In this document: piece after piece, positions 2,805-19,472 of the stretch | How the letters are laid out: each line of letters begins with the position of its first letter | Numbering within the stretch: the first letter of the stretch is position 1 | Virus record (IMG/VR): IMGVR_UViG_3300021959_000357 | Span: 1-25,145 of that record | Length of the DNA: 25,145 nt | DNA from: a virus | Direction: 5' to 3' (one strand) | Position numbers and translations under genes: made by a program | The notes under the pieces: generated by a model | The model's database searches: none | What the model was told of the DNA's origin: nothing | The model's input: the letters and a program-made list of their open reading frames with translations, nothing else

Positions 2805-5800
2805 TTACTTATTAGACTTTAATTCATCGATCTGTTTTTGTTGTTCCTTAACGGCTTCAATTAATAATGCGACCAAGTTAGAGTAAGAAACATTCTTAAT
2901 CTTATCTTCTGAATCGTCTTCACCAACAACCTGTGGAACAATCTCTTCAACTTCTTGAGCGATAAGACCAATCTTCTTACCAGTCATTTCTTTAAAGTTG
3001 AATTCAACACCTCTTAAGGAAAGTACCTTATCAAGAGCGTTCTCGATCGTTTCTACGTTTTCTTTAACTCGAGCATCAGAAGTTGAGTTAAAGTCTGCAG
3101 CGGTTAATTCACCGGTTCCTGTATCGAACTTGAACCTTTGAGTTGTTCCTTCGCGAATATAGATGTCGTAGCTAGCGTCAGCATCGATGTACATTGCTGT
3201 GCCGTTGTTATAGAATTCAATATCCTTACCAGTACCGAAGTTAAGCTTAATATTATCGTTAAACGTTAAGTCACCACCAGTTTGAACATTGTTTCCGCCA
3301 CCATCATATCCAGCAGGCCATGCAGTTTCAGTAACACCACCCAGTGTAATACCACCTTCGACTGTTACGTTTTCAACAGATAATTCGTCATCGATGCCGG
3401 TATAGAATAGGTTAGAGTTTCCTCCTCCTGGCAGTGGCCGTGGGTTAGGACCAGTTGTACCATAGATTGGTCTACCACCTGAGCCACCTTGGACCAAGTT
3501 GACAAACATTGCAGTACCCTGAAGAGCACTAGTATAAAGGTTTTGTACGTCAACCGAACCAGTTGTACCAGTTGTACCTTGAATACCTTGCGGTCCAGTT
3601 GCACCTGTAAAGCCCTGTGCTCCTTCTGGTCCTTGTCCGCCATCGCCACCTTCTGGACCTTGAATACCTTGCGGTCCAACACCAAATGGTCCTTGGAAAC
3701 CTTGAACTCCGCGATATCCTTGGAAGCCAGCGCCACCACTAGGACCGGAACCACCCTGTGCTCCTATGAATCCTTGGAAGCCTCTCTCGCCCTGAAGACC
3801 CTGTTCAGATCCACCGATTGGTCCTTGGAATCCAGCCTCACCCTGAACACCCTGTGCACCAATAGCACCTTGTAAACCAAATCCTGAAGGACCTTGTCCA
3901 CCATCAGCACCTTGGAATCCACGATAGCCCTGTACACCAACTCCACCAGTTCCGCCAGCCTCACCTTGTGGTCCTTGGAATCCGCGTTCACCTTGAACAC
4001 CCTGAATACCTTGAGGTCCACCGTTCTCAGCGCCTTGAACACCTTGGAAACCTTGAATACCACGAGGACCTTGAGCACCTTCGACTCCATTACCGATTGC
4101 GCCCTGAATACCTATTTCACCCTGAACACCTTGAGTACCCTGTGGGCCTGGGTCACCAGCACCTCTTGTTCCTTGAGTTCCTTGGAATCCACGATATCCC
4201 TGAATACCCGTAGATGCATCACCCTGTTCGCCCTGAGGACCTTGAACACCTTGAGTACCGCTTGCACCCTGAGGACCTTCTTGACCTTGTCCAAATGCAC
4301 CTTGAATACCTTGTACACCTTGAGTACCCTGTAGTCCCTGTACACCGTTACCGGTTAAACCAGAAATACCTTGCGGTCCTTGTATACCTTGAGCACCTTC
4401 ATCACCAGCAGGACCCTGCGTACCAATTGCACTCGGTCCTTGAGCACCTTGTGGTCCTTGAATACCTTGAGCACCATCTGTTCCTGGGCCGCCCGGCTGA
4501 CCTTCATCACCAGCAGGACCTTGAATACCGTCTTCACCAGTTGTACCTTGCGGTCCTTGAGGACCAGCTGGACCCTGTGCACCTATACCGCCAGATCCAT
4601 TAAATCCTTGGAATCCACGATAACCCTGTATCCCTAATGGACCTTGAGCACCGATACCACCAGTACCACCTTGAATACCATCGGTACCTTGTGGACCCTG
4701 AGGACCTTGAACACCTTGAGCGCCAGCACCTTCAGGACCATCACCACCTTGAACACCCTGTAAACCTTGAGTACCTTGAACACCCTGTGCGCCGATTCCT
4801 CCACCGGCACCTTGTAAACCTTGAGCACCTTGGATACCAGTACCACCAGTAGCACCCTGAGGACCTGCCGCACCAGTGGCACCAATGTCACCAGTTCGAG
4901 CAAATGTAATTGTAACATCTTCACCATTTGCGAACGATCCGTTTCCACTCACAAAGTCACAGTTGACAATGAAGTATCCACCTTGGTTAACCGTTCCGCT
5001 AATAGTAAAGATCTTGAAGTCTTGTGGTGCAGACTTCTTAGTAATCTTAAAGTGACCTTTAACAGGGCTTGTACTATCATCAATAGTAAGTAAGAAAGGC
5101 TCAATGTTAACGAAGTTATCGTCACGATCATCAATGAACATTGCTGTAATGTCAGCATCAGTTGTATCATTGACCTTTAACTTACCGAAGCCCGGATCAG
5201 CATTGTTTGTTGTATTGTCGAATGTGTAGTCGAATGTTACACCACCAAACGAACCATCGGCACCCTGAATACCTAAGTCACCTTGTACACCCTGTACACC
5301 CTGTACACCAGCACCGGTAAATCCTTGTAAGCCTTGAGCACCCTGAGGTCCTTGAGCACCCTGCACACCAGCAGGTCCGCGTGGGATAAATGAGATTAGT
5401 GTTTCTGCTGAGTGAGATGCAGCAACCGCGGTCCAAGATGTCGCATTACCATCAACGTAATTAACGTCAAAGTAACCGTAATTCTTAGAACCTGAATCCC
5501 AAGACCAGTTTGTAATTTCGTATACAAGCCAATGGTGTCCGCCAGGTCCTGTTCCGCCGGGGCCTGCACCTGCCTGAATTTTTAAATAACCTTTTACGGT
5601 ACCAGGTTGATTATCAATGAAGTCTAAGAAGTCATCAATTTCTGTATCGTATTGGTCGAAAGGAACATCGTCAAGTGTTAATAGGTCAGCCAGAGTTGTG
5701 TTTGCATTATTCAGTTTCCAGTTGTTGGTGCCTGGGTCTGTTCCACCCAGTGTGTTAGAACTCCAATTCCACTTGAAGGTCATTCCACCATATTCACCTT

Positions 5801-8774: not shown

Positions 8775-11700
8775 TTAAAGTGACGCTCTACTATTAGAAG
8801 CACGTCTTGCTAGTTTTCTAACAGAAGATGTAAATGGTCGACCTTCAATTCGTCCTGTACGACCGTTAATCCTTAATCCTCTTGCAAAGTACTGGTTGTT
8901 CAATTCATCCGCACCTGACCATCTGATACGTCCGCCATCTTCATTCAATACCGAAGCGATAGCAGAGATTGGCTGACCTAAGTTTCTAAAGTTCAGTGGC
9001 AATGCGTTTCTGTTAACACCTGCCGATGCACCGTTGAACTGGTGAGCAATGGATTCAACCAACGATCCGAAGATCAATGTTTCTGGTCTTACCACGTTAT
9101 CAATCAAACAATCATTAAACAATCCGGCAATCATTGCTGAGTGAGCCGCATCAGGTGAAAGGTTACTAATCATGTAATCTCTCATTCGTTCCCATGCCCC
9201 TACGAAGGAATCTAGAAGTTCAGTGTTATTAGGACCATCGTATCTCCAATCGTTGATTGTAGGATCCCAATAATATATATCACCCTCGTAGTGACTATCC
9301 GCCATGTTAGTAGCAACGATATATGCATGGTTTGGTTTTTGACCAGTGACCGATGCTAGAATACCGCTACCAACAGGACCTTGTAAAGAACCTTGATACT
9401 TCAAGCCCGGAGTAGTTGAGTTGAATACTGGGAATGCATGTTGACCTTTGTAATCGAAGAACGATGATGTAAAGGTTCTTATTGCATTCTGAGCACCAAC
9501 CGCAATACTACCAGTGTAAGATGGTGAATTAACTTCTGTGCCATCCTCATACTTGAAGTCATTTGCTATTGCTTGAAGCAAGTTAGATGCATCGCGTCTA
9601 GTAAGAGGTAAGTTGATAAATCCGTATTCAGCACTTACATATCTTACGGTATCAGCAGCAAGATTAATCTTATTCTCACCGATGATAAACTGAGCACCAG
9701 TAAACTTGTCTCCAGCATAAGTGTAATCAGGTTCTTGCTTAGCTGGTAAATACTTCGTATCTTTATTTATCTGAGTCAGATAGAATACATTTGCAAGCTT
9801 TTCAACTTTATCAGCTTCAACCTGAGTACCAAGCTCGCCTTTAGCAACCTGTCCTTCATACTTACCGAGAACGATATCTTTACAAATTACACCAAGCTGT
9901 CTATAAGACTTAGCAGTTGCTTCACGCTGATTTTCTGGTACTCGATACTCGTTATTCCAGAAGTAGAAGTCTGCATTCCAACGAGAAGCGATGTTACCAC
10001 CATAGTTCAAGTCATAGCTGAATGCATCGAGTAAGTAACCAACATCTCGGAAACACTTGGCTCGGTTATAATCAAGAGCATTAAACTCAGTGTTGATAAA
10101 GTGTACCAAGTCATTTGCTAGATGATCGACATTATCTTCGATTTGCTCTGCAGCTCCAATTAACTCAGAGTTGACCCAAGAAAGATCAGGTCCTTCAAGC
10201 CCTGGTAGTGCATCAGTTGAATTTGCTCGAATAACATCTTCAACAATACCGATGAGAGACTGTGCAGCCGCTGCTTCGGTAGCTGTTCCCGGTGTTCCGA
10301 GGAACTGTTGATAAGGACCGTTAGCAAGTGAATCAGCATCAGCCGTTACGAATGTATGAGCAACTTGACCTGTTCCGCCCGTTCCTACATTCATCGTAAT
10401 CGTAGTACCCTCTACAGCAGTAATTGGGCATCCTCTGTTATAGTATGGGTGATGTGATTCTGGTGACCTATGATTCTGGTTACCAGAGCCCATGTTGCAA
10501 GAGAATACAATACTTTCAGGAGCAAACCATACAAGATCTCCAACCTTAAAGTTGTTGCTTCCGATCGTTGCGGTAAATACTCCAGATGCTGGATCGTAAG
10601 TTGCATTAGTTGGAGTGTAAGTTGTAAACTGCGATACATCATTTTCTTGAACGACTTGTGACATTACAAGACCGAGGTAATCGTAAATGTCTGCGGTTTG
10701 CTTACGGGTATCTGCTGGAAGTACACTTACTCCATTTTCGAAGTAGATTCCTGCAGATTGTCTAGAAGCAAAGTTTCCGCCATATTGAACGTCGTGTGAT
10801 ACAGCATCAATTAAGTAACCGATGTCTCTTCGACATTTCGCTCCTGGGAAGCCTAATCCATTTTGAACTGCGGTCAAGTATGTAAGTACATTATCTGCTA
10901 GAGCAGGTACAGCATCTTCAACCACTTCCTTACCAGCAATAACTGTTGGTGATTGCCATGTTTGTAATGGATCGACTCGAGTTGGGAATGTAGCATAAGA
11001 TCCAGTCTCAACAACATTGGTAATAATCATACCTAATGCTTTTGCTCGAGTAGCGATCATTGGGTTACCAGCAACATTACCGAGTTCTTGTCGATATGGA
11101 TTTGAAACCTTAATGATAGCATTTGCTTTAGCACTTACAAATGAGTGAGCCTGAGTGTATCCACCGGCAGGTTCAACATTAACTGTAAATGTAGTTGCAG
11201 TAACAGCAGATACTCGAAGTGGCTTACGATAAACAGGATCTGTTACTCGTGGATGCGAGATCTCAACGGCTGGGTTATTACACTCAAACGTAATACCTTC
11301 CTTTTCGATAACAATGTAATCACCAAGACTTAATGTGTGTGGTGCCAAAGTAGTTGTTACCATTTCACCAGATACTGGATCATAAGCAACTGTACTTACA
11401 CCGAATCGATCAAGTGGTCGTAACGGAATTTCTTGACGTTGTACAATCTTCTCGACCAACTCAGACATGTGAGTAAAGGCAAACTTAGAAGCTTCTCTCT
11501 GTTCGAGTGGCAGAGTATTAACTGCGTTATCAAAGTAGAGTTTAGCATTACCTAAGGTTGCTGCATTGCCACCATACTGAATATCATGTGAGATTCCATC
11601 CAAGATGTACTTGGTATCTCTTCGACATTTGTCTTCGCTGTAAGGAAGAATCTCGAAGTACTCAGCAAGGTGAGCATAAAGACCATCTTGTACGCTTGGG

Positions 11701-14700
11701 ATTACAGCTTCCAACTCAGTGAATGCAGTCTTGAATTCATCGACATAAGCATTAGATGCACTGTTTGGTTCTTCCAAAGCAGGCATACTTTCAAGTGAGT
11801 TATTTGATATTGCATTAGCAACTACAGAGAATAGTCTCTCAACTTCATTACCAACCGCTAGACCAGCACTACCTGAGTCTCTATTCTGTGTCTCACTGTT
11901 TGAGCTAGACTTAAGTCCCAGTGCATCGACATCTTGATCTTGTACGATGTACTTAGCAACCTCTGCAATGTGGATGAATGTTTCAGCGGTCTTAGCTTGT
12001 TGATCAACCGGTAATACACTTACAGCATTCTCGAAGTAAAGTTTAGCATTTCCTCTAACTGCTGAGTTACCGCTGTGGTAAGTGTCAAAGATTACACAAT
12101 CTGTTAAGTAACCAACATCCCTCTCACACTTAGCAACATCATAAACATATGAAGGATAGTTGTCAGCAAGGTAAGCAGTGATTTCAGCCTGCATGAATGC
12201 TTTGTTATTCTTTAACTGTTCCCGTGCATTAACACCATTTAGACCACGAGAGCTTGATGGACCGAATACAATATTATCAGCGGCTGATTCACCGTTGGTC
12301 ATAATGTCGATAAGCTCATTGAATGAATTCAGAGTCTTTGTCTTAGCAGTAGGATCGGTTACAGCGGCTACCGCAGCATCTCGAGTATATTCAATTGCAG
12401 AAACAGTTTCTGTTAATTGTTCAGTGATTACGTTATCAGCTAATTTCGTACCAATTCGATAAGCTAATCCATTGAATACCGCATTAAAGTTTGAATCGGT
12501 TAGAACATCTCGCTTAACTGCATTAATCAGAATTGCCATATCTCTGTAGCACTTTTCACCATCGAAGGTGTAGTAACGCTCTCTCAGATATTCAACAACG
12601 TCTTCAGCAATAAAGTCCTTGTTCATTTGGATTTGCTTACGTGCCACAGTCCTATTAGGATCAACTGTTGGGTTAGTAGCTTCAGGAATGTAATCAGCAG
12701 TCTTATCATCTACAAGGTCAGCAACTGCTTGGATCAAGTCATGTACCGCAGTACCGGTAGCAGCAGGAGCGGCTGTACCACTTGTATCCTGAGCTGGTAC
12801 ATCAGCAGATGAAGGAGTGATTGCAGTTTCTGTTACGACCTTTTCAGCAACATCTGCTAATCTCTCGAATGCCAATCGAGTTGGAACTCGTTGTATTTCT
12901 GGTAAAACATTAATAAGTGTACGTAGACCAGAAACGTTAGCAGTTGGATACTCTTCAGCAGTATCTCTCATTTGTCCTTTTACTTCAAGAGGAAGAACGT
13001 TAACGCTTCGTAGTTGCTCGTAATCACCGGATGTTTCATCATCACGTGAGAAGTAGAATGCAGCAGACTCAATAGTAGAAGCATTGCCACCATACTCAAT
13101 ATCCTTAGATACCGAATCTATAATATGACCAACATCTCTGAAACACTTAGCCTTGTTATATGGAAGACCGTTGAATACGTTGATGATGTGTTCAATAACA
13201 TCAGTTTGAAGGTTTTCAGTCTTACCATCCATTCTAGCAACGGCAGTCTCGAATCCAGCTTCAATAGTAGGTTCAACATAAGAAGGTAACCAATCAAGCG
13301 TGTCAGCTTCAATTGTCTTAGTGACAACCGTAACAAGATCACGACCTTTGTTACCTAGGATGATTCCTAAATCTCCACCTGAAACATCCTGTGTTTGAAC
13401 GTTTCCTGTTGTAGGTGTAATTGCAATTGCTCGAATAACCGAGTAGCAAACTTCAGCAATGTATTCCCAAGTTCGAACGGTTGGAACAACTTGATCTTCG
13501 GGTAATACAGCCATTGCGTTTTCAAAGTAAAGTCTTGCAAAGTTAACCGCACCAGCATTTGATCCGTGTTGGATATCCCAAGAGATTGCATCAATCATGT
13601 ATCCAGTATCACGAAGACACTTAGCAGTATCATAAGTAAGATTTGGATAAGTGTCAGCGATATGTGCTATTGTCTCAGCTTGGATAAACGTTTTGTTTGT
13701 CTGTAGTGCAACTCGAGCATTAGCATGAGCTACATCAACTGCATTAGTACCCCAAACAATCGTATCAGCATTACCTGAACCGTTTGATAAGATGTCAATG
13801 ATTTCGTCGAAAGCATCGTTGCTTCGAGTTAAAGCAGTACCGGTAAGTTCTTCACTAACCTCTGACTTGAGGTAGTTGATTGCACCAACGGTTTCTGTGA
13901 GCTGGTCATTAACGACCTTGTCTGCACCTACGGTTCCAATTCGATATCCCAATCCCATGTAAATTGCAGGATAGTTAGAACCAGTAGCAACCGAACGTCT
14001 TGCTGCATCAACAATAAATCCAGTATCTCGAGAACACTTATCACCATCAAATACGAAGTATTGAGTATCAAGGTATTCCATGATCTCAGTCTGAATCATG
14101 TTTCGATTTGCTTGGAGTTGCTCTCTAGCCAACTGCCCGGCTGTATTGGTTGTTACCTTTATGACCGCGTCATTAGCCACACTCACGAAGGTGTGAGTCC
14201 CTCCAGATCCTGTACCTACATTGACAGTAATATTGTTTCCTGCAACGTTTGTAATCTCCATTGCGGTCTTGTAATTACCATCTCCAACTCGTGGATATTG
14301 ATGCTCAGTAGCATTACCATCCAGAGAACAGGTGTATGTAAAGCTATATGGTGTAAACTCAATACGATCACCAATTGCCAAATCATGGTCAGGAATAGTA
14401 ACAACACTGACTCCAGTTGCAGGATCGTATGTAGCAGTTGTTGGTGTGTAGTAGTTCAAGTAAGATGATGGATCAGTCCAAACGAGTGGATCAGCAATGA
14501 TAGCACCAACATCAGCACTTACAAATGTATGAACACCAGTATAACCTCCACCAGCACCGACATTCATAGTAATTGACGTCGCAGTTACCGCGGTAACTAA
14601 TACTGGTTTCTTATAGAATGGATGGTGTTGCTCTGGACTTGCATGATCTTCTGGACCATTACCGTTGTCACAACTAAATACTACACTCTCTGGCTTGATT

Positions 14701-17700
14701 TCTACATAATCACCAACCTGGACGTTGTGCTTTCCAATTGAAGCAACGAAGACACCAGTGTTAGGATCGTAAGTAGCATTTTGTGGAGTGTAAGTACCTG
14801 AGTAACCAAACTCTTTAACACAGTCATCGGTAGCACTCACAAATGTGTGTACTTTATCTGTTCCTGCAGGACCAATGTAGCAAGTAAATGTAGTAGAAGA
14901 TGTCGCAGTAATCTTGATCGGCTTACGATAAACTGGATCAGTTGGCCGTGGATGAGTAATTGAAACTGGGCTACCACCTTCATCTGGGCATGTAAACGTA
15001 ATGCAAGAATCTGCAAGTACAATTTCTTGGCCGGGCTGAAGATCATGATCACCAATTGTGCTAATCATCATTCCTGTTACAGGATCATAAGTTACATCAG
15101 TTGGTGTATATGTCTTTCCGGTATTATTAACAATGTCAACAAGTTGACGGAACGAGAGATCTGCTTGAGTAGATTCAGCATTACGTCCGACCGAAGTAAC
15201 TTCAGAGATAGCATTAGCAACAGATGATACAAATGTATGTGGGAACAAGCCTGTTCCACCAGTACCTACATTCATAGTAATTGTAGTTGCATCAACCTCG
15301 GTAACCAAACATGGCTTACGATAGAATGGGTGGTGAGCTGCTGGTGAAGTATGGTTAGTAGCACCACTTCCCATGTCACAACTCATTGTAATACCGTTAT
15401 CTGCAAACCAGACATAATCGCCAGGTTCTAAACTGTGAGTTCCTACCGTTGCAACAAAGATTCCAGTATTAGGATCGTAAGTAGCATTGGATGGAGTAAA
15501 CTGAGCACCAAACTCAACACCAACATTGTCGGTAATTTCTTGTCGTGTATTAAACTGGAGATCTTCAATTGCTGCAACAGTCTGTGGCAGTTCATTAAGT
15601 ATGGTTGACTCACCAGTTTTCTGACGATAAGCGATACCAGCTTGAATTGCGTTATAGTTACCACCGGTAACCATGTCACGTTGTACAGCAGGTAAGATGT
15701 AATCTGTTACATCCCTACGGCAAGCGATGTTATCGTAATGGAAGTAGTTAGTATCGATATAATTCAATACCGAATCTTGCATAAACTCTCGGTTAGCTTG
15801 AAGTAGCTTACGAGAATCTCGTCGTGCTTCCAAAATACCAGCGTCATCAGAGAATGTAATTTCAGCACCAAGTACCGAGATAGCATTTGGTAAAGCTGAT
15901 ACGAAGGTGTGGGCTTTATCGACCGTTGCTACACCAGCATTAATTGTAATAGTGGTTGCACCAACATCTATAATTTCACATGGCGTGTTGTAGCATGGAT
16001 CTGGACGACCTGCTCCACCCAATGCTCGTGGATGTGCAATTTGACCAATGCTTCCATCACCTTCACAAGCAAGAAGAATACTTTCTGGCTTGAATAGTAT
16101 CTTATCACCTGGTTCTAAATTATGAGTACCGATGGTCATTATCATAACACCGGTAATGTGATCGTAATCTACACCAGTAGGAGTAAATGTAGCACCGTTA
16201 GCTCGTAGTTGTGTAATAATTTCATCGAAAGCACCATCGACTCGAGCTGAACTAATGTAAGAGTTCGCATCAAGAATTTCGTTAGTACGATCTTTCAAGA
16301 ATCGGTAAGCACCAATTGTTTCATTTCGTTGCTCACCTATAACCTTAGATGCAGATGCCATGTAGTATGCATTACCGGCGGTTACTGCATTATAGTTTGT
16401 GTCAAGAAGCATGTCATTCTTAACTGCTGGCATGATGTAGTCAGTAGTATCTCTACGGCATGCAACACTATCATATGAGTAGAACTGATCGTTATTGTCG
16501 ATCCAGTTGGTCAACTCAGTTTGAATGAATGTTCTATTATCTTGGAGAAGTTCCCGAGCTGCAGTTTGTTCAACAGATGTTGGTACCCAAGTAATTGGGT
16601 TAATGTTTTCTTCACCGTATTGAAGAACATTGTACAGTTCTTGCATCGAGGTATTTGCTCGTGCTACAATTGCTGGATCACCTTCGAAGAGATCTTGCAC
16701 TCGAGCTTGCATGTACTCGTTAGCACCAAGAGTTTCTTCAAGCTGCTCGCCTGGGACTACATATGAAATTGGTGAACGGTAAGAAATACCTGCTAATCGA
16801 CCCCAGTAGTTACTATCAAGAGCAATGTCATATCCAAGACCATCGAGGATAATCTTAGAATCTCGCTCACACTTATCAGCATCATATCCTTTATAACCCA
16901 ATCCGCCCGAAGCAGTATTTGCAGTTATGAAGTCGACCATGTCGTCGATGATAAGTGGCTCATTTGCTTCGATAGTGTCGGCAAATGCTGTGTTACCAAA
17001 TATGTTAGCAGCGCTAGTAGACTTAGGAGCAAAGAACCTTGTGGTACCTTTTGCTCGCATTGAGATGTCACCGAACTGAGTACCTGAGTTGTTCAATGTC
17101 ATTTGTCCGCCGTTCAAGGCGTAAAATGCAATACGTACGAAGATTGACAGAGAACCAATACCGTTTACACCAGCACCATCCCGTGCTACATAACCGATAC
17201 CGTTCTGAGTACGAGGTGTGAAACCAAAACATAGTACATATGTATATAGTGAATCTGGATCTAGAACTCTTCGGTCTGCAAGTACACAACCACCACCTCG
17301 ACCTACCAACCTGTTAGGGAAGTCATCAATACCGATCGACTCGACAGTACCTGTTCCGCCTGATTCACATTGTACGGTATCACCTACCGCAAAACCTCGA
17401 TTGTTCTTAAGGTTTCGTACTCGAATCTTACGATTTTGGTTGACGTCACGATCAATACCCTGAGCTGCATCCATGCTGTCATCCCAAGAGAGATAACCAA
17501 CTGCACCAGATGAGAATGTAACTTCATCACCTTCTTGCCACAACGACAATGCAGGGTTAGCATTTTGTCCTGTCATGCCAACTTCAAGTGTAAACTCTCT
17601 ACCAAGGTCAGCTAGTGTACCTTTGGTGTTGTATGGGTTAAGAGGTGGTTCAACATCAGAACGAACAAAGTTTGAAAGCTGAGTTGAGTCTCTCAAGTAT

Positions 17701-19472
17701 GGAGAACGAAGTAACTTAGCGCCTGGTCGATAAGCAACCGCGAATCCACCTTCTGGGAAATCGAAGTTATCGATCTTCCAGTTCATGTAAGAGAAGCCCT
17801 GTACATAACAACCAGAACCTACTAGAATCGCGTTGTTATTTTCATAACCTGGAAGTGCTTCAATAACCGTGGCATACTGACCAGATGTAGAAGTAACCGA
17901 ACAATCATCCGGCAACATCAAGTTACCCTTGGTGTAATATGTTCCTGGCCCTGCAGAAATATGAACTGAGTTGTTTAAAGCATTTCGATCAAATGATCCA
18001 CCAGCCTTTTCTAAACAAAGCTCAAATGCTCGTTCCATACTTTGAACTGGCTGTAACTGAGTTCCTGGGTTGTCATCATTACCTGATGCCGCATCAACGT
18101 GAACTTTAAGAGCCTGTGCAGTACTCTTCGATACTTCGTCAAATAATTGACTGTAAGAAATTTGTTCTGTTTGACCTGTCTTTTCGTTCTTAATAGCAAA
18201 GTAGCTATCTTCATCAAGAGGTGGCTCAAACTTATCATTGAGATCCATGTCAAAGTCGACAAGAGTAGAATCCTTAACGATACCATTGTCGAACGTTGAC
18301 TTAGTAACATCACCACTGTCGAACGTTGATCTTGTTTGACTAAAGCCATCAGCACTTGAACTCGTGATGGTCATGTTCTGAGCTACTACATTATCCATCG
18401 TTCCTGTAAAGGATGAATTAACAATTTCAGAATTCTGAATTGTACCTTGGTCAATTGTAGTATTGGTAAAGACGTTGTTATTGCCGGTACCATCAGAGAA
18501 GTCTGAGTTAATGATTTCAACATTATCAAGATCAGACTGAGTAATTGTAACGTTGTTTGCTGTTGAATCTTCAATTGCGCCATCAGTAAACGTTGAATTA
18601 GCAATTTCTAAATTATCAGCAGTGCTATCGGTGATTGTAGAATCATCAATAGTAGAATTTGTAAGTACTACATTATTACCAGTACCATCATTAAATTCAG
18701 AATCAGTTATAACAACGTTGCTTGCAACCGAATCTTCAATTTCACCGTTCGTAAAGACAGAGGTATCAATGGTAGATCTGGTAAGTACTACGTTGTTGCC
18801 GGTTCCGTCATTAAACTGAGAATCGGTAATAACTACGTTATTTGCGGTAGAGTCGTTTAACTCAGAATTTGTAAGTACTACATTGTTACCGGTAGAGTCA
18901 AAGATCTCTCCATCAGTAAACTCGGAATTTGTTATTACAATATTGTTAGCAGTGGAATCTTCAATCGACCCATCATTAAATTCAGAATTTGTTATTACAA
19001 CATTGTTTGCTGTACTATCATTAAGTTCTGAATTCGTGAGTACAACATTATTACCTGTTGAATCATTAATCTCGCCGTCGTTGAACTCAGACTGAGTAAT
19101 GATAACGTTGTTTGCTGTAGAGTCGTTAATCTCACCGATATTAAATTCGGATGAGGTAATGATTAAGTTATTAGCATCCGAGTTCGTAATGACCGTATCG
19201 TCAATCGTTCCTCGTTCAAAGTTGGTATCTTCGATGTCAGAATTGTCGATAATGACTCGATCAATGCGCAGGTCGTGGATGAACGCGCCGGAAATGTCTC
19301 CGCCGGTAATCGTGATCCGATCAAATACCTCGTACTGAATGGCCTGTACGAGTTCTTTACGAGTGATGTTTGATGTGCCATCATCACCTTGTACCAGATT
19401 GACAATAACAAATAGATCTTCTGATCTAGTATTATCACCGGTAATCGGAGGTAATTCTGAAATCTTCGCCAT
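8775..19472 (-). CDS. Giant modular virion structural / fibre protein (3565 aa)
   Basis: The ATG at 19472 follows GGAAAGG and a T4-type late promoter octamer. Order of parts: an N-terminal module (KISELPPITG, DLFVIVNLVQ); a pentapeptide-repeat solenoid at residues 54-358; a second short module (EDSYFAIKNEKTGQ); a pectin-lyase/parallel-beta-helix-like start near residue 453 (HVDAASGNDDNPGTQLQPVQ) running to about residue 800. Then come about 12 helical modules centred on a Cys-x-Arg-Asp motif (16975-9450), with seven beta domains of about 100 residues set between or within them. The C-terminal region of about 200 residues ends with GGRIRWSGADELNNQYFARG, TGRIEGRPFTSSV and a basic tail; comparable endings occur in large marine T4-like phage fibre proteins. 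No catalytic motif is clear. There is no signal peptide, and no frameshift over 10.7 kb. A surface fibre or whisker with host-binding modules is the likeliest role, by inference. Confidence 0.92.
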   Translation of the reverse strand: MAKISELPPITGDNTRSEDLFVIVNLVQGDDGTSNITRKELVQAIQYEVFDRITITGGDISGAFIHDLRIDRVIIDNSDIEDTNFERGTIDDTVITNSDANNLIITSSEFNIGEINDSTANNVIITQSEFNDGEINDSTGNNVVLTNSELNDSTANNVVITNSEFNDGSIEDSTANNIVITNSEFTDGEIFDSTGNNVVLTNSELNDSTANNVVITDSQFNDGTGNNVVLTRSTIDTSVFTNGEIEDSVASNVVITDSEFNDGTGNNVVLTNSTIDDSTITDSTADNLEIANSTFTDGAIEDSTANNVTITQSDLDNVEIINSDFSDGTGNNNVFTNTTIDQGTIQNSEIVNSSFTGTMDNVVAQNMTITSSSADGFSQTRSTFDSGDVTKSTFDNGIVKDSTLVDFDMDLNDKFEPPLDEDSYFAIKNEKTGQTEQISYSQLFDEVSKSTAQALKVHVDAASGNDDNPGTQLQPVQSMERAFELCLEKAGGSFDRNALNNSVHISAGPGTYYTKGNLMLPDDCSVTSTSGQYATVIEALPGYENNNAILVGSGCYVQGFSYMNWKIDNFDFPEGGFAVAYRPGAKLLRSPYLRDSTQLSNFVRSDVEPPLNPYNTKGTLADLGREFTLEVGMTGQNANPALSLWQEGDEVTFSSGAVGYLSWDDSMDAAQGIDRDVNQNRKIRVRNLKNNRGFAVGDTVQCESGGTGTVESIGIDDFPNRLVGRGGGCVLADRRVLDPDSLYTYVLCFGFTPRTQNGIGYVARDGAGVNGIGSLSIFVRIAFYALNGGQMTLNNSGTQFGDISMRAKGTTRFFAPKSTSAANIFGNTAFADTIEANEPLIIDDMVDFITANTASGGLGYKGYDADKCERDSKIILDGLGYDIALDSNYWGRLAGISYRSPISYVVPGEQLEETLGANEYMQARVQDLFEGDPAIVARANTSMQELYNVLQYGEENINPITWVPTSVEQTAARELLQDNRTFIQTELTNWIDNNDQFYSYDSVACRRDTTDYIMPAVKNDMLLDTNYNAVTAGNAYYMASASKVIGEQRNETIGAYRFLKDRTNEILDANSYISSARVDGAFDEIITQLRANGATFTPTGVDYDHITGVMIMTIGTHNLEPGDKILFKPESILLACEGDGSIGQIAHPRALGGAGRPDPCYNTPCEIIDVGATTITINAGVATVDKAHTFVSALPNAISVLGAEITFSDDAGILEARRDSRKLLQANREFMQDSVLNYIDTNYFHYDNIACRRDVTDYILPAVQRDMVTGGNYNAIQAGIAYRQKTGESTILNELPQTVAAIEDLQFNTRQEITDNVGVEFGAQFTPSNATYDPNTGIFVATVGTHSLEPGDYVWFADNGITMSCDMGSGATNHTSPAAHHPFYRKPCLVTEVDATTITMNVGTGGTGLFPHTFVSSVANAISEVTSVGRNAESTQADLSFRQLVDIVNNTGKTYTPTDVTYDPVTGMMISTIGDHDLQPGQEIVLADSCITFTCPDEGGSPVSITHPRPTDPVYRKPIKITATSSTTFTCYIGPAGTDKVHTFVSATDDCVKEFGYSGTYTPQNATYDPNTGVFVASIGKHNVQVGDYVEIKPESVVFSCDNGNGPEDHASPEQHHPFYKKPVLVTAVTATSITMNVGAGGGYTGVHTFVSADVGAIIADPLVWTDPSSYLNYYTPTTATYDPATGVSVVTIPDHDLAIGDRIEFTPYSFTYTCSLDGNATEHQYPRVGDGNYKTAMEITNVAGNNITVNVGTGSGGTHTFVSVANDAVIKVTTNTAGQLAREQLQANRNMIQTEIMEYLDTQYFVFDGDKCSRDTGFIVDAARRSVATGSNYPAIYMGLGYRIGTVGADKVVNDQLTETVGAINYLKSEVSEELTGTALTRSNDAFDEIIDILSNGSGNADTIVWGTNAVDVAHANARVALQTNKTFIQAETIAHIADTYPNLTYDTAKCLRDTGYMIDAISWDIQHGSNAGAVNFARLYFENAMAVLPEDQVVPTVRTWEYIAEVCYSVIRAIAITPTTGNVQTQDVSGGDLGIILGNKGRDLVTVVTKTIEADTLDWLPSYVEPTIEAGFETAVARMDGKTENLQTDVIEHIINVFNGLPYNKAKCFRDVGHIIDSVSKDIEYGGNASTIESAAFYFSRDDETSGDYEQLRSVNVLPLEVKGQMRDTAEEYPTANVSGLRTLINVLPEIQRVPTRLAFERLADVAEKVVTETAITPSSADVPAQDTSGTAAPAATGTAVHDLIQAVADLVDDKTADYIPEATNPTVDPNRTVARKQIQMNKDFIAEDVVEYLRERYYTFDGEKCYRDMAILINAVKRDVLTDSNFNAVFNGLAYRIGTKLADNVITEQLTETVSAIEYTRDAAVAAVTDPTAKTKTLNSFNELIDIMTNGESAADNIVFGPSSSRGLNGVNAREQLKNNKAFMQAEITAYLADNYPSYVYDVAKCERDVGYLTDCVIFDTYHSGNSAVRGNAKLYFENAVSVLPVDQQAKTAETFIHIAEVAKYIVQDQDVDALGLKSSSNSETQNRDSGSAGLAVGNEVERLFSVVANAISNNSLESMPALEEPNSASNAYVDEFKTAFTELEAVIPSVQDGLYAHLAEYFEILPYSEDKCRRDTKYILDGISHDIQYGGNAATLGNAKLYFDNAVNTLPLEQREASKFAFTHMSELVEKIVQRQEIPLRPLDRFGVSTVAYDPVSGEMVTTTLAPHTLSLGDYIVIEKEGITFECNNPAVEISHPRVTDPVYRKPLRVSAVTATTFTVNVEPAGGYTQAHSFVSAKANAIIKVSNPYRQELGNVAGNPMIATRAKALGMIITNVVETGSYATFPTRVDPLQTWQSPTVIAGKEVVEDAVPALADNVLTYLTAVQNGLGFPGAKCRRDIGYLIDAVSHDVQYGGNFASRQSAGIYFENGVSVLPADTRKQTADIYDYLGLVMSQVVQENDVSQFTTYTPTNATYDPASGVFTATIGSNNFKVGDLVWFAPESIVFSCNMGSGNQNHRSPESHHPYYNRGCPITAVEGTTITMNVGTGGTGQVAHTFVTADADSLANGPYQQFLGTPGTATEAAAAQSLIGIVEDVIRANSTDALPGLEGPDLSWVNSELIGAAEQIEDNVDHLANDLVHFINTEFNALDYNRAKCFRDVGYLLDAFSYDLNYGGNIASRWNADFYFWNNEYRVPENQREATAKSYRQLGVICKDIVLGKYEGQVAKGELGTQVEADKVEKLANVFYLTQINKDTKYLPAKQEPDYTYAGDKFTGAQFIIGENKINLAADTVRYVSAEYGFINLPLTRRDASNLLQAIANDFKYEDGTEVNSPSYTGSIAVGAQNAIRTFTSSFFDYKGQHAFPVFNSTTPGLKYQGSLQGPVGSGILASVTGQKPNHAYIVATNMADSHYEGDIYYWDPTINDWRYDGPNNTELLDSFVGAWERMRDYMISNLSPDAAHSAMIAGLFNDCLIDNVVRPETLIFGSLVESIAHQFNGASAGVNRNALPLNFRNLGQPISAIASVLNEDGGRIRWSGADELNNQYFARGLRINGRTGRIEGRPFTSSVRKLARRASNSRASL
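9450..16975 (-). repeat. Array of about 12 Cys-x-Arg-Asp helical modules in the giant protein
   Basis: The motif (Y/F)(D/N)xxKCxRD followed by a hydrophobic helix and a GGN/SNxN turn recurs with its Cys codon near 16870, 16456, 15720, 14036, 13617, 13142, 12550, 12128, 11629, 10824 and 10054. A twelfth, degenerate copy lacking Cys lies near 9595 (LTRRDASNLLQAI). Each is usually preceded by a helix of the form RxxLQxNRxFIQxE and followed by one of two endings: QLTETVxAI (copies 3, 4 and 7, with a related NETIGAYRFL in copy 2) or YFENAVxVLPxxQ (copies 5, 8, 9, 10 and variants in 6 and 11). Similar modules occur in large cyanophage and pelagiphage structural proteins; I know of no assigned function. 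Confidence 0.85.
14155..15515 (-). repeat. Four consecutive copies of a ~100-residue beta domain (seven copies in the whole gene)
   Basis: Each copy reads roughly TPTxATYDPxTGV, then a TIGxHxLxxGD strand-turn, a SITFSC strand, an HPR or HHPFY element, TxITMNVG and a closing HTFVSA. Four lie in a row at about 15195-15515, 14815-15118, 14500-14795 and 14155-14460. Three more sit singly at about 15870-16200, 11110-11410 and 10320-10630. The strong Gly/Thr/Val content and alternation point to a compact beta fold. The repeated units are clearly homologous to one another, but the DNA copies have diverged. Confidence 0.85.
18399..19313 (-). repeat. Pentapeptide-repeat solenoid coding region (61 units)
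   Basis: Residues 54-358 of the giant protein can be divided into 61 consecutive five-residue units without a register break. Typical units are VITNS, EFNDG, EIEDS and TANNV. Every fifth residue is Ile, Phe, Leu or Ala and the residue two before it is usually Ser, Thr, Val or Asn, which is the pentapeptide-repeat rule for a right-handed four-sided beta-helix. At DNA level phrases of about 60 bases recur, for example GTAAGTACTACATT on the plus strand at about 18661 and 18871 and variants at 18781 and 19037. That equals one full turn of four pentapeptides. Confidence 0.9.

Follow-up and report, generated by a model that had tools for sequence, protein, structure and literature searches.

Introduction

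Several described systems come close to the locus analyzed here. Giant proteins of cultured marine phages include Sf-CH1b_92 (3473 aa), S-WAM2 gp224 (4759 aa), P-SSM2 gp7 (5195 aa) and P-RSM4 PRSM4_106 (6603 aa). An earlier note on this DNA had mentioned that marine T4-like phages are known to carry large structural proteins, and these relatives bear this out, several of them sharing both helical modules and beta domains with the protein described below (P0001). Those helical modules contain a Cys-x-Arg-Asp (CxRD) motif. According to excerpts of PMC10151467, many phycobiliproteins, and also the globins BBAG-1/3 (bilin biosynthesis-associated globins), use CXRD as their attachment motif, and BBAG-1/3 bind bilins without lyases.

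The role of the cyanophage genes pcyA and pebS was called "a mystery" (PMC3037559, cited from an excerpt), and the purpose of phage bilin genes was left open in the available portion of PMC11480375, in which binding to BBAG-type globins was named as one possibility. Bilin-globin-like domains that keep the motif in proteins of the phage tail region would offer a concrete candidate acceptor for phage bilins. Here, we describe P0001, which is probably a giant fibre protein of the tail or baseplate region of an uncultured marine T4-like phage, with 12 modules of predicted phycobiliprotein fold in a row, small beta domains in their loops and conserved ends.

A giant open reading frame and its neighbourhood

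The window, a 25,145-base IMG/VR record analyzed at its full length, holds on its minus strand the single unbroken frame of 3565 aa that had been claimed for it (Table 1). Two scans of viral contigs, one with the C-terminal part and one with residues 445-830, gave 253 and 235 relatives, respectively, and 80 were kept from each. In the set from the residue 445-830 scan, 56 of the 80 homologous IMG/VR loci contain a complete ORF, counted only if longer than 3000 aa; 46 of the 56 are distinct, and the lengths span 3162-4177 aa. A length of exactly 3565 aa recurs in three further contigs (L090-L092), whose region called pectin-lyase-like in the earlier note is 99-100% identical. The complete ORFs (n = 56) carry 11 CxRD motifs in 26 cases, 12 in 27, 18 in one and 19 in two, and from 1 to 9 beta motifs each. 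Misassembly of shorter genes, which the earlier note had raised as a possible source of the giant ORF, was discarded as very unlikely because so many homologous loci hold complete ORFs.

Table 1. Positions of P0001, its parts and its neighbours in the window.
Feature	Position	Strand	Basis or remark
P0001, giant ORF, 3565 aa	8775..19472	-	from start codon (19472) to stop (8775)
P0002, upstream neighbour, 400 aa	19526..20728	-	C-terminal Peptidase_S74 (intramolecular chaperone)
P0003, upstream neighbour, 1370 aa	20926..25038	-	DUF4815
P0005, downstream neighbour, 139 aa	8340..8759	-	
P0004, downstream neighbour, 1830 aa	2805..8297	-	long collagen-like repeats and terminal Peptidase_S74 chaperone domain
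N-terminal segment, residues 1-59	19296..19472	-	homologous BLAST stretches starting at residue 1
Pentapeptide-repeat region, residues about 60-400	18273..19295	-	Pfam PF13599
Conserved region, residues about 440-836 ("pectin-lyase-like" in the earlier note)	16965..18155	-	conservation among 13 sequences
Module 1, CERD at residue 868	16635..17030	-	module HMM and motif
Module 2, CRRD at 1005	16119..16622	-	module HMM and motif
Beta insert 1	15864..16190 (approximate)	-	motif
Module 3, CRRD at 1251	15432..15908	-	module HMM and motif
Beta insert 2	15177..15503 (approximate)	-	motif
Beta insert 3	14787..15113 (approximate)	-	motif
Beta insert 4	14469..14795 (approximate)	-	motif
Beta insert 5	14127..14453 (approximate)	-	motif
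Module 4, CSRD at 1813	13734..14198	-	module HMM; part of phycobiliprotein-fold model
Module 5, CLRD at 1952	13347..13739	-	module HMM; part of phycobiliprotein-fold model
Module 6, CFRD at 2110	12810..13301	-	module HMM and motif
Module 7, CYRD at 2308	12249..12701	-	module HMM and motif
Module 8, CERD at 2449	11844..12266	-	module HMM and motif
Module 9, CRRD at 2616	11334..11795	-	module HMM and motif
Beta insert 6	11082..11408 (approximate)	-	motif
Module 10, CRRD at 2880	10554..10997	-	module HMM and motif
Beta insert 7	10296..10622 (approximate)	-	motif; modelled in model 2
Module 11, CFRD at 3140	9756..10217	-	module HMM and motif
Module 12, degenerate, TRRD at 3291, without Cys	9453..9725 (approximate)	-	motif
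C-terminal cap, last 110 aa	8778..9107	-	85-100% identity in 56/56 homologues

The neighbourhood of the gene is conserved. P0002 and P0003 lie upstream in all 61 loci with more than 6 kb of upstream sequence, P0005 lies downstream in 30 of the 33 loci with more than 1.2 kb of downstream sequence, and by Pfam and PHROG the neighbours look fibre-like and baseplate-like. P0001 itself matches phrog_701 ("virion structural protein") in 11 stretches with E 3.7e-120, and it also matches families labelled "tail fiber protein". The PHROG labels and the conserved tail neighbourhood sustain the earlier claim of a large virion structural protein as far as a modular structural protein of the tail region is concerned; we infer that it is present in the virion, where it would form a prominent surface structure. 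A giant fibre of phage S-CREM2 was detected by mass spectrometry (excerpt of PMC10665884), which was discarded as proof of virion location here because our module search gave no module match in the S-CREM2 fibre.

The gene psbA was found in none of the 28 larger family contigs. The terminase of a 98-kb contig near-identical to the window is closest, at about 59%, to those of the Sinorhizobium phages phiM12, phiN3 and phiM7; in phiM12, the one of these three covered by the module search, no modules were found. An alphaproteobacterial host is only a guess made from these sequences.

Conserved ends, repeated modules and beta inserts

The N-terminal part of P0001 is shared widely: homologous BLAST stretches to residues 1-860 (n = 50 distinct, coverage at least 75%) begin at residue 1 in 46 cases and are 57-100% identical to the window protein. 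The pentapeptide solenoid described in the earlier note is backed, as a pentapeptide region, by a match to Pentapeptide_4 (PF13599) at E 1.3e-11 and 44.8 bits, above the cut-off of 38. The pectin-lyase-like start that was said to follow it gained no support from sequence searches. A 13-sequence alignment of residues 440-860 had no match among PDB sequences up to E 10, no pectin-lyase family was among the Pfam matches of the 13 members, and the best Pfam match was DUF7305 (E 0.0035, in 9 of the 13). The mean column identity of residues 440-836 is 77% in these 13 sequences. At the other end, the cap that had been called conserved-looking is indeed conserved in every complete homologue (Table 1), yet AlphaFold2 models it as a single chain with low confidence (block means 25-42), which suggests that the cap may need a partner.

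Between these ends, about 12 Cys-x-Arg-Asp modules had been counted, fairly, since 11 are intact and one is degenerate (Thr-Arg-Arg-Asp); all seven inserted beta domains were likewise recovered, by the motif Y[DN][PH]x[TS]G. The module HMM recovers each of the 11 intact modules at E 2.8e-35 or better and, having been built from the same 11 modules, demonstrates repetition only. Across the 80 loci, module matches of at least 40 bits number 769 (not deduplicated); CxRD is present in 761, and the other eight keep Cys and Asp. The twelfth module has Thr or Ser in place of Cys and retains Arg and Asp ([TS]RRD) in 55 of the 56 complete homologues. With its Cys lost and its Arg and Asp kept, it is a natural negative control.

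Beta inserts come after the motif helices of modules 2, 3, 9 and 10, in an inter-helix loop, as judged from the sequence and from model 2 (see below). The best structural neighbour of beta insert 7 in model 2 is residues 256-334 of the phage phi92 endosialidase (Z 6.9, rmsd 1.9, 71 aa, 21% identity), a match too weak to count as reliable by the tool's own standard.

Predicted phycobiliprotein fold of the modules

An alignment of 87 two-module stretches (A1) was used for profile searches. Its profile gave nine matches up to E 10 among PDB sequences, seven of which were phycobiliproteins (E 0.03-1.5), and in the printed profile-PDB alignments the module Cys falls on the bilin Cys. The Pfam family PF00502 (Phycobilisome) was the commonest among the 87 A1 members, 18 of which match it at E 1 or better (best E 7.1e-6). 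P0001's own A1 stretch scores 20.2 bits against a curated cut-off of 22.2, which is exceeded by the whole S-WAM2 gp224 protein from a cultured phage (49.4 bits, E 6.3e-13). For a second S-WAM2 ORF, 14 of 15 PDB matches were phycocyanin chains.

Structure prediction with AlphaFold2 gave a two-module model of residues 1768-2070 (model 1, modules 4-5) with pLDDT 86.3 and pTM 0.81. VIA-align listed 50 entries for it, of which 47 were phycobiliprotein or phycobilisome chains and three were fluorescent proteins, namely smURFP (6fzn), the bacterial fluorescent protein 8u0f and the designed near-infrared protein 8j98; the Z scores were 15.3-13.4, in a method that can give helical models lacking any clear match a best Z of 14. 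Either module of model 1 can match phycobiliproteins by VIA-align. Foldseek gave 188 matches up to E 10, and 46 of the 50 listed were phycobiliproteins or derived from them; the best E was 0.028, none of the 188 reached E 0.001 and no single row is significant by E-value. Cyanophage tail proteins predicted independently, in library models, showed the same fold with 15 matches at E 0.001 or better. By the alignments and model 1, the motif sits in the first turn of a helix at the place matching phycobiliproteins, and 11 P0001 modules have Cys-x-Arg-Asp at this bilin attachment place. At one aligned position, Asn is the residue seen most often both in phage modules (69 of 103) and in phycobiliproteins (73 of 127).

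Within P0001, the globin-like phycobiliprotein fold was found in the predicted model 1 only. Model 2, covering residues 2826-3565, was poor (pLDDT 64.9, pTM 0.35); its structural searches had no phycobiliprotein among the matches listed, and the module carrying a beta insert came no closer than flavohemoglobin (Z 4.4). Model 2 did not reproduce the fold result of model 1. A further alignment, A2, included one paralogous row (L159) and was kept out of structure prediction.

The contribution of the motif was evident from controls. Profile comparison by hhalign scored 36.6 for the real alignment, 11.8 with KCxRD masked, 12.0 with the alignment reversed and at most 18.4 in 60 column shuffles, and the mean best score of a phycobiliprotein HMM on 56 family proteins fell from 6.5 bits to -1.7 with KCxRD masked and was -1.6 for reversed sequences. 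Masking drops the scores to the control level, so that the sequence similarity of the modules to phycobiliproteins lies in the motif; the fold claim leans on one good model, on the library models made by others and on the place of the motif. Three invariants of the phage modules are without counterpart in phycobiliproteins: Asp+14 (101 of 103 representatives), Asn+20 (98 of 103) and Tyr+30 (103 of 103). The phycobiliprotein (bilin-binding globin) fold of the Cys-x-Arg-Asp modules is predicted, not solved.

Bilin genes and cpeT in relation to the modules

A ferredoxin-dependent bilin reductase is encoded in 3 of the 28 larger family contigs, and a heme oxygenase gene lies beside it in the same three. 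These pairs, in a family that shows no psbA, are at 676-2133 of L253 (G014), 1447-2802 of L252 (G008) and 1492-2744 of L251 (G012). The cassette occurs in two of the seven family contigs of at least 100 kb, which is too few to claim an enrichment of bilin reductases. A known lyase gene in the same genome, which is not strictly required, was not found among the family contigs, CpeT and CpeS each being detected in 0 of 28, many of which are fragments. In a separate observation, a contig titled as a Bifidobacterium breve MAG (L208) encodes a phycocyanin alpha chain, presumably through contamination with cyanobacterial DNA.

Among cultured cyanophages, the gene cpeT lies 0.4-1.5 kb upstream of a module-bearing "short tail fiber" gene in nine genomes, S-PM2, S-WAM2, S-RSM4, S-CAM1, Syn1, S-RIM44, ACG-2014e, S-CAM3 and Sf-CH1b; no other record of the 19 searched, a set chosen partly for modules, has a strong full-length CpeT. 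CpeT was found in 12 of 13 cultured module-bearing phages in the records searched for both, again partly chosen for modules; weak CpeT matches lie far from modules in S-SZBM1, S-SCSM2R and P-RSM4. A relative of one S-WAM2 module was found in 73 phage records, by name 55 Synechococcus, 15 Cyanophage, two Prochlorococcus and one Marine, which serve as a lead only since the query itself came from a Synechococcus phage; the name Prochlorococcus stands there for Syn1, whose host is Synechococcus WH8101. In the S-PM2 record (L374, 5929-17268), the annotation places sixteen tRNA genes within the giant "short tail fiber" gene and gives the giant CDS and a tRNA one locus tag, which is probably an annotation artefact.

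Discussion

In the working that we propose for P0001, the conserved ends would fix the protein to the virion or help to assemble it there, the chain of globin-fold modules would act as a long stalk or spacer with a copy number that varies between phages, and the beta inserts would be exposed binding units touching the host surface. The overall shape may be that of a long fibre or of a baseplate-attached rod.

The modules could instead be an unrelated helical bundle that resembles phycobiliproteins by convergence and contains the CxRD motif by coincidence. The dependence of the sequence signal on the motif and the failure of model 2 to repeat the phycobiliprotein match speak for such a bundle, but the structural neighbours of model 1 are near-unanimous, the motif occupies the matching place in the first helix turn, the aligned Asn predominates in both families and the S-WAM2 protein has a strong Pfam score, so that we consider convergence improbable. 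A shared phycobiliprotein fold leaves two readings of what the modules do. They may bind bilins (biliverdin, phycoerythrobilin or phycocyanobilin), through a covalent bond to the motif Cys or through contacts with Arg and Asp. The virion fibre would then be a chromoprotein, and its pigment could give protection from light, serve in signalling, make the fibre more stable or recruit host bilin or its lyase; we regard bilin binding as possible and rather doubtful. Alternatively, phages may have captured the phycobiliprotein fold for use as a rigid helical brick, with Cys-Arg-Asp kept only for folding or packing and no pigment bound, to which we give about an even chance.

Pigment binding is favoured by retention of the motif, kept in nearly all of the 769 module matches while 103 divergent representatives average 28% identity. 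Nine cultured-phage giants gave 43 readable motifs (not deduplicated, rows with a gap at the motif dropped, six giants truncated where the analyzed sequence ended); Cys and Asp are both present in 42 of these motifs, and Arg as well in 35. In a smaller cyanophage set with duplicates and gapped rows removed, Cys is kept in 19 of 22, and the three without Cys are also without Arg. The identity of the motif with the attachment motif of phycobiliproteins and BBAG-1/3, the adjacency of hemO to a bilin reductase gene in three family contigs, including the two largest, and the position of cpeT within 1.5 kb upstream of the giant in 9 of 9 cyanophages with a strong full-length CpeT point the same way. 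However, the complete Mosig genome and P-SSM4 have bilin genes and no detected modules. P-SSM2, which carries pebS and ho1, is likewise without modules by the module search. Modules occur in only 1 of the 32 IMG/VR bilin-reductase contigs of at least 10 kb (all of that size among the 80 kept matches, most of them fragments), and a general link from phage bilin reductases to modules is therefore unsupported. Further points against pigment are that only two of the seven large family contigs have the hemO-reductase cassette, that the 28 family contigs lack CpeT and CpeS, that no reductase was matched in the 98-kb contig near-identical to the window and that the phage invariants are absent from phycobiliproteins. 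In P-SSM4 and P-RSM4, cpeT neighbours gp5 and adjoins no module protein, so that its adjacency to the modules may be explained by a common, inherited gene order. Every one of these points counts in favour of the rigid brick, as do the phage-specific residues at +14, +20 and +30, the Cys-less twelfth module maintained in nearly all homologues and the three Cys-less modules of cyanophages; in contrast, packing alone hardly explains why each of the 769 module matches keeps a lone Cys where phycobiliproteins attach the bilin.

For the possible pigment binding, a fuller proposal is that marine T4-like phage particles carry bilins on tail-fibre arrays of some 4 to 19 phycobiliprotein-like domains. 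The bilins would be made by the phage or by the host, and in cyanophages a CpeT-type lyase encoded by the phage itself would load them; this proposal is slightly less likely again than bilin binding as such. Pigmented virions, if real, would explain what some of the long-puzzling phage bilin genes are for and would represent a virion chromoprotein of a kind that we have not found described. Even without pigment, the prediction suggests that a light-harvesting or bilin-globin fold has served phages in building giant fibres.

Comparison with known systems

The giants of marine T4-like cyanophages (phrog_701, phrog_5342, phrog_4527) and P0001 are alike in size, in their tail or baseplate neighbourhood and in their beta domains. 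Those of S-WAM2, Sf-CH1b and P-RSM4 share the helical modules with P0001, whereas P-SSM2 gp7 has no module match. The resemblance is limited in sequence: the C-terminal part of P0001 reaches about 30% identity at best to the cyanophage giants, its N-terminal 836 aa have no match to them at E 1e-5, and its cap matches them weakly (E 0.04 or worse). In the translation of the Sf-CH1b giant (L009, 13277-23698), examined by eye, CxRD and beta modules seem to be inserted within a beta-helix-like region and not to follow it.

Phycobiliproteins (PF00502) and the P0001 modules are alike in predicted fold and in the Cys-x-Arg-Asp motif, which BBAG-1/3 share by published description (excerpt of PMC10151467). 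P0001 differs from both in having tandem modules within a giant phage protein, beta inserts, phage-specific invariants and no phycobilisome partner. The hemO-pcyX cassettes of marine phages (PMC11480375, in the portion available) are like the adjacent heme oxygenase and bilin reductase genes of three of the 28 family contigs, but a similar cassette also occurs without modules, most family contigs searched are without it, and PcyX-type activity is putative here. The open-access literature searched contained no description of phycobiliprotein-like phage tail-fibre modules with a retained bilin motif. The earlier note had considered the combination of modules undescribed, but giant marine phage proteins of this general kind are known; the likeness of the Cys-x-Arg-Asp modules to phycobiliproteins, which is the notable part, had gone unnoticed in it. 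P0001 is thus a giant protein of a known kind, and the reading of its helical modules as phycobiliprotein-like domains with a bilin motif is new within the open-access literature searched.
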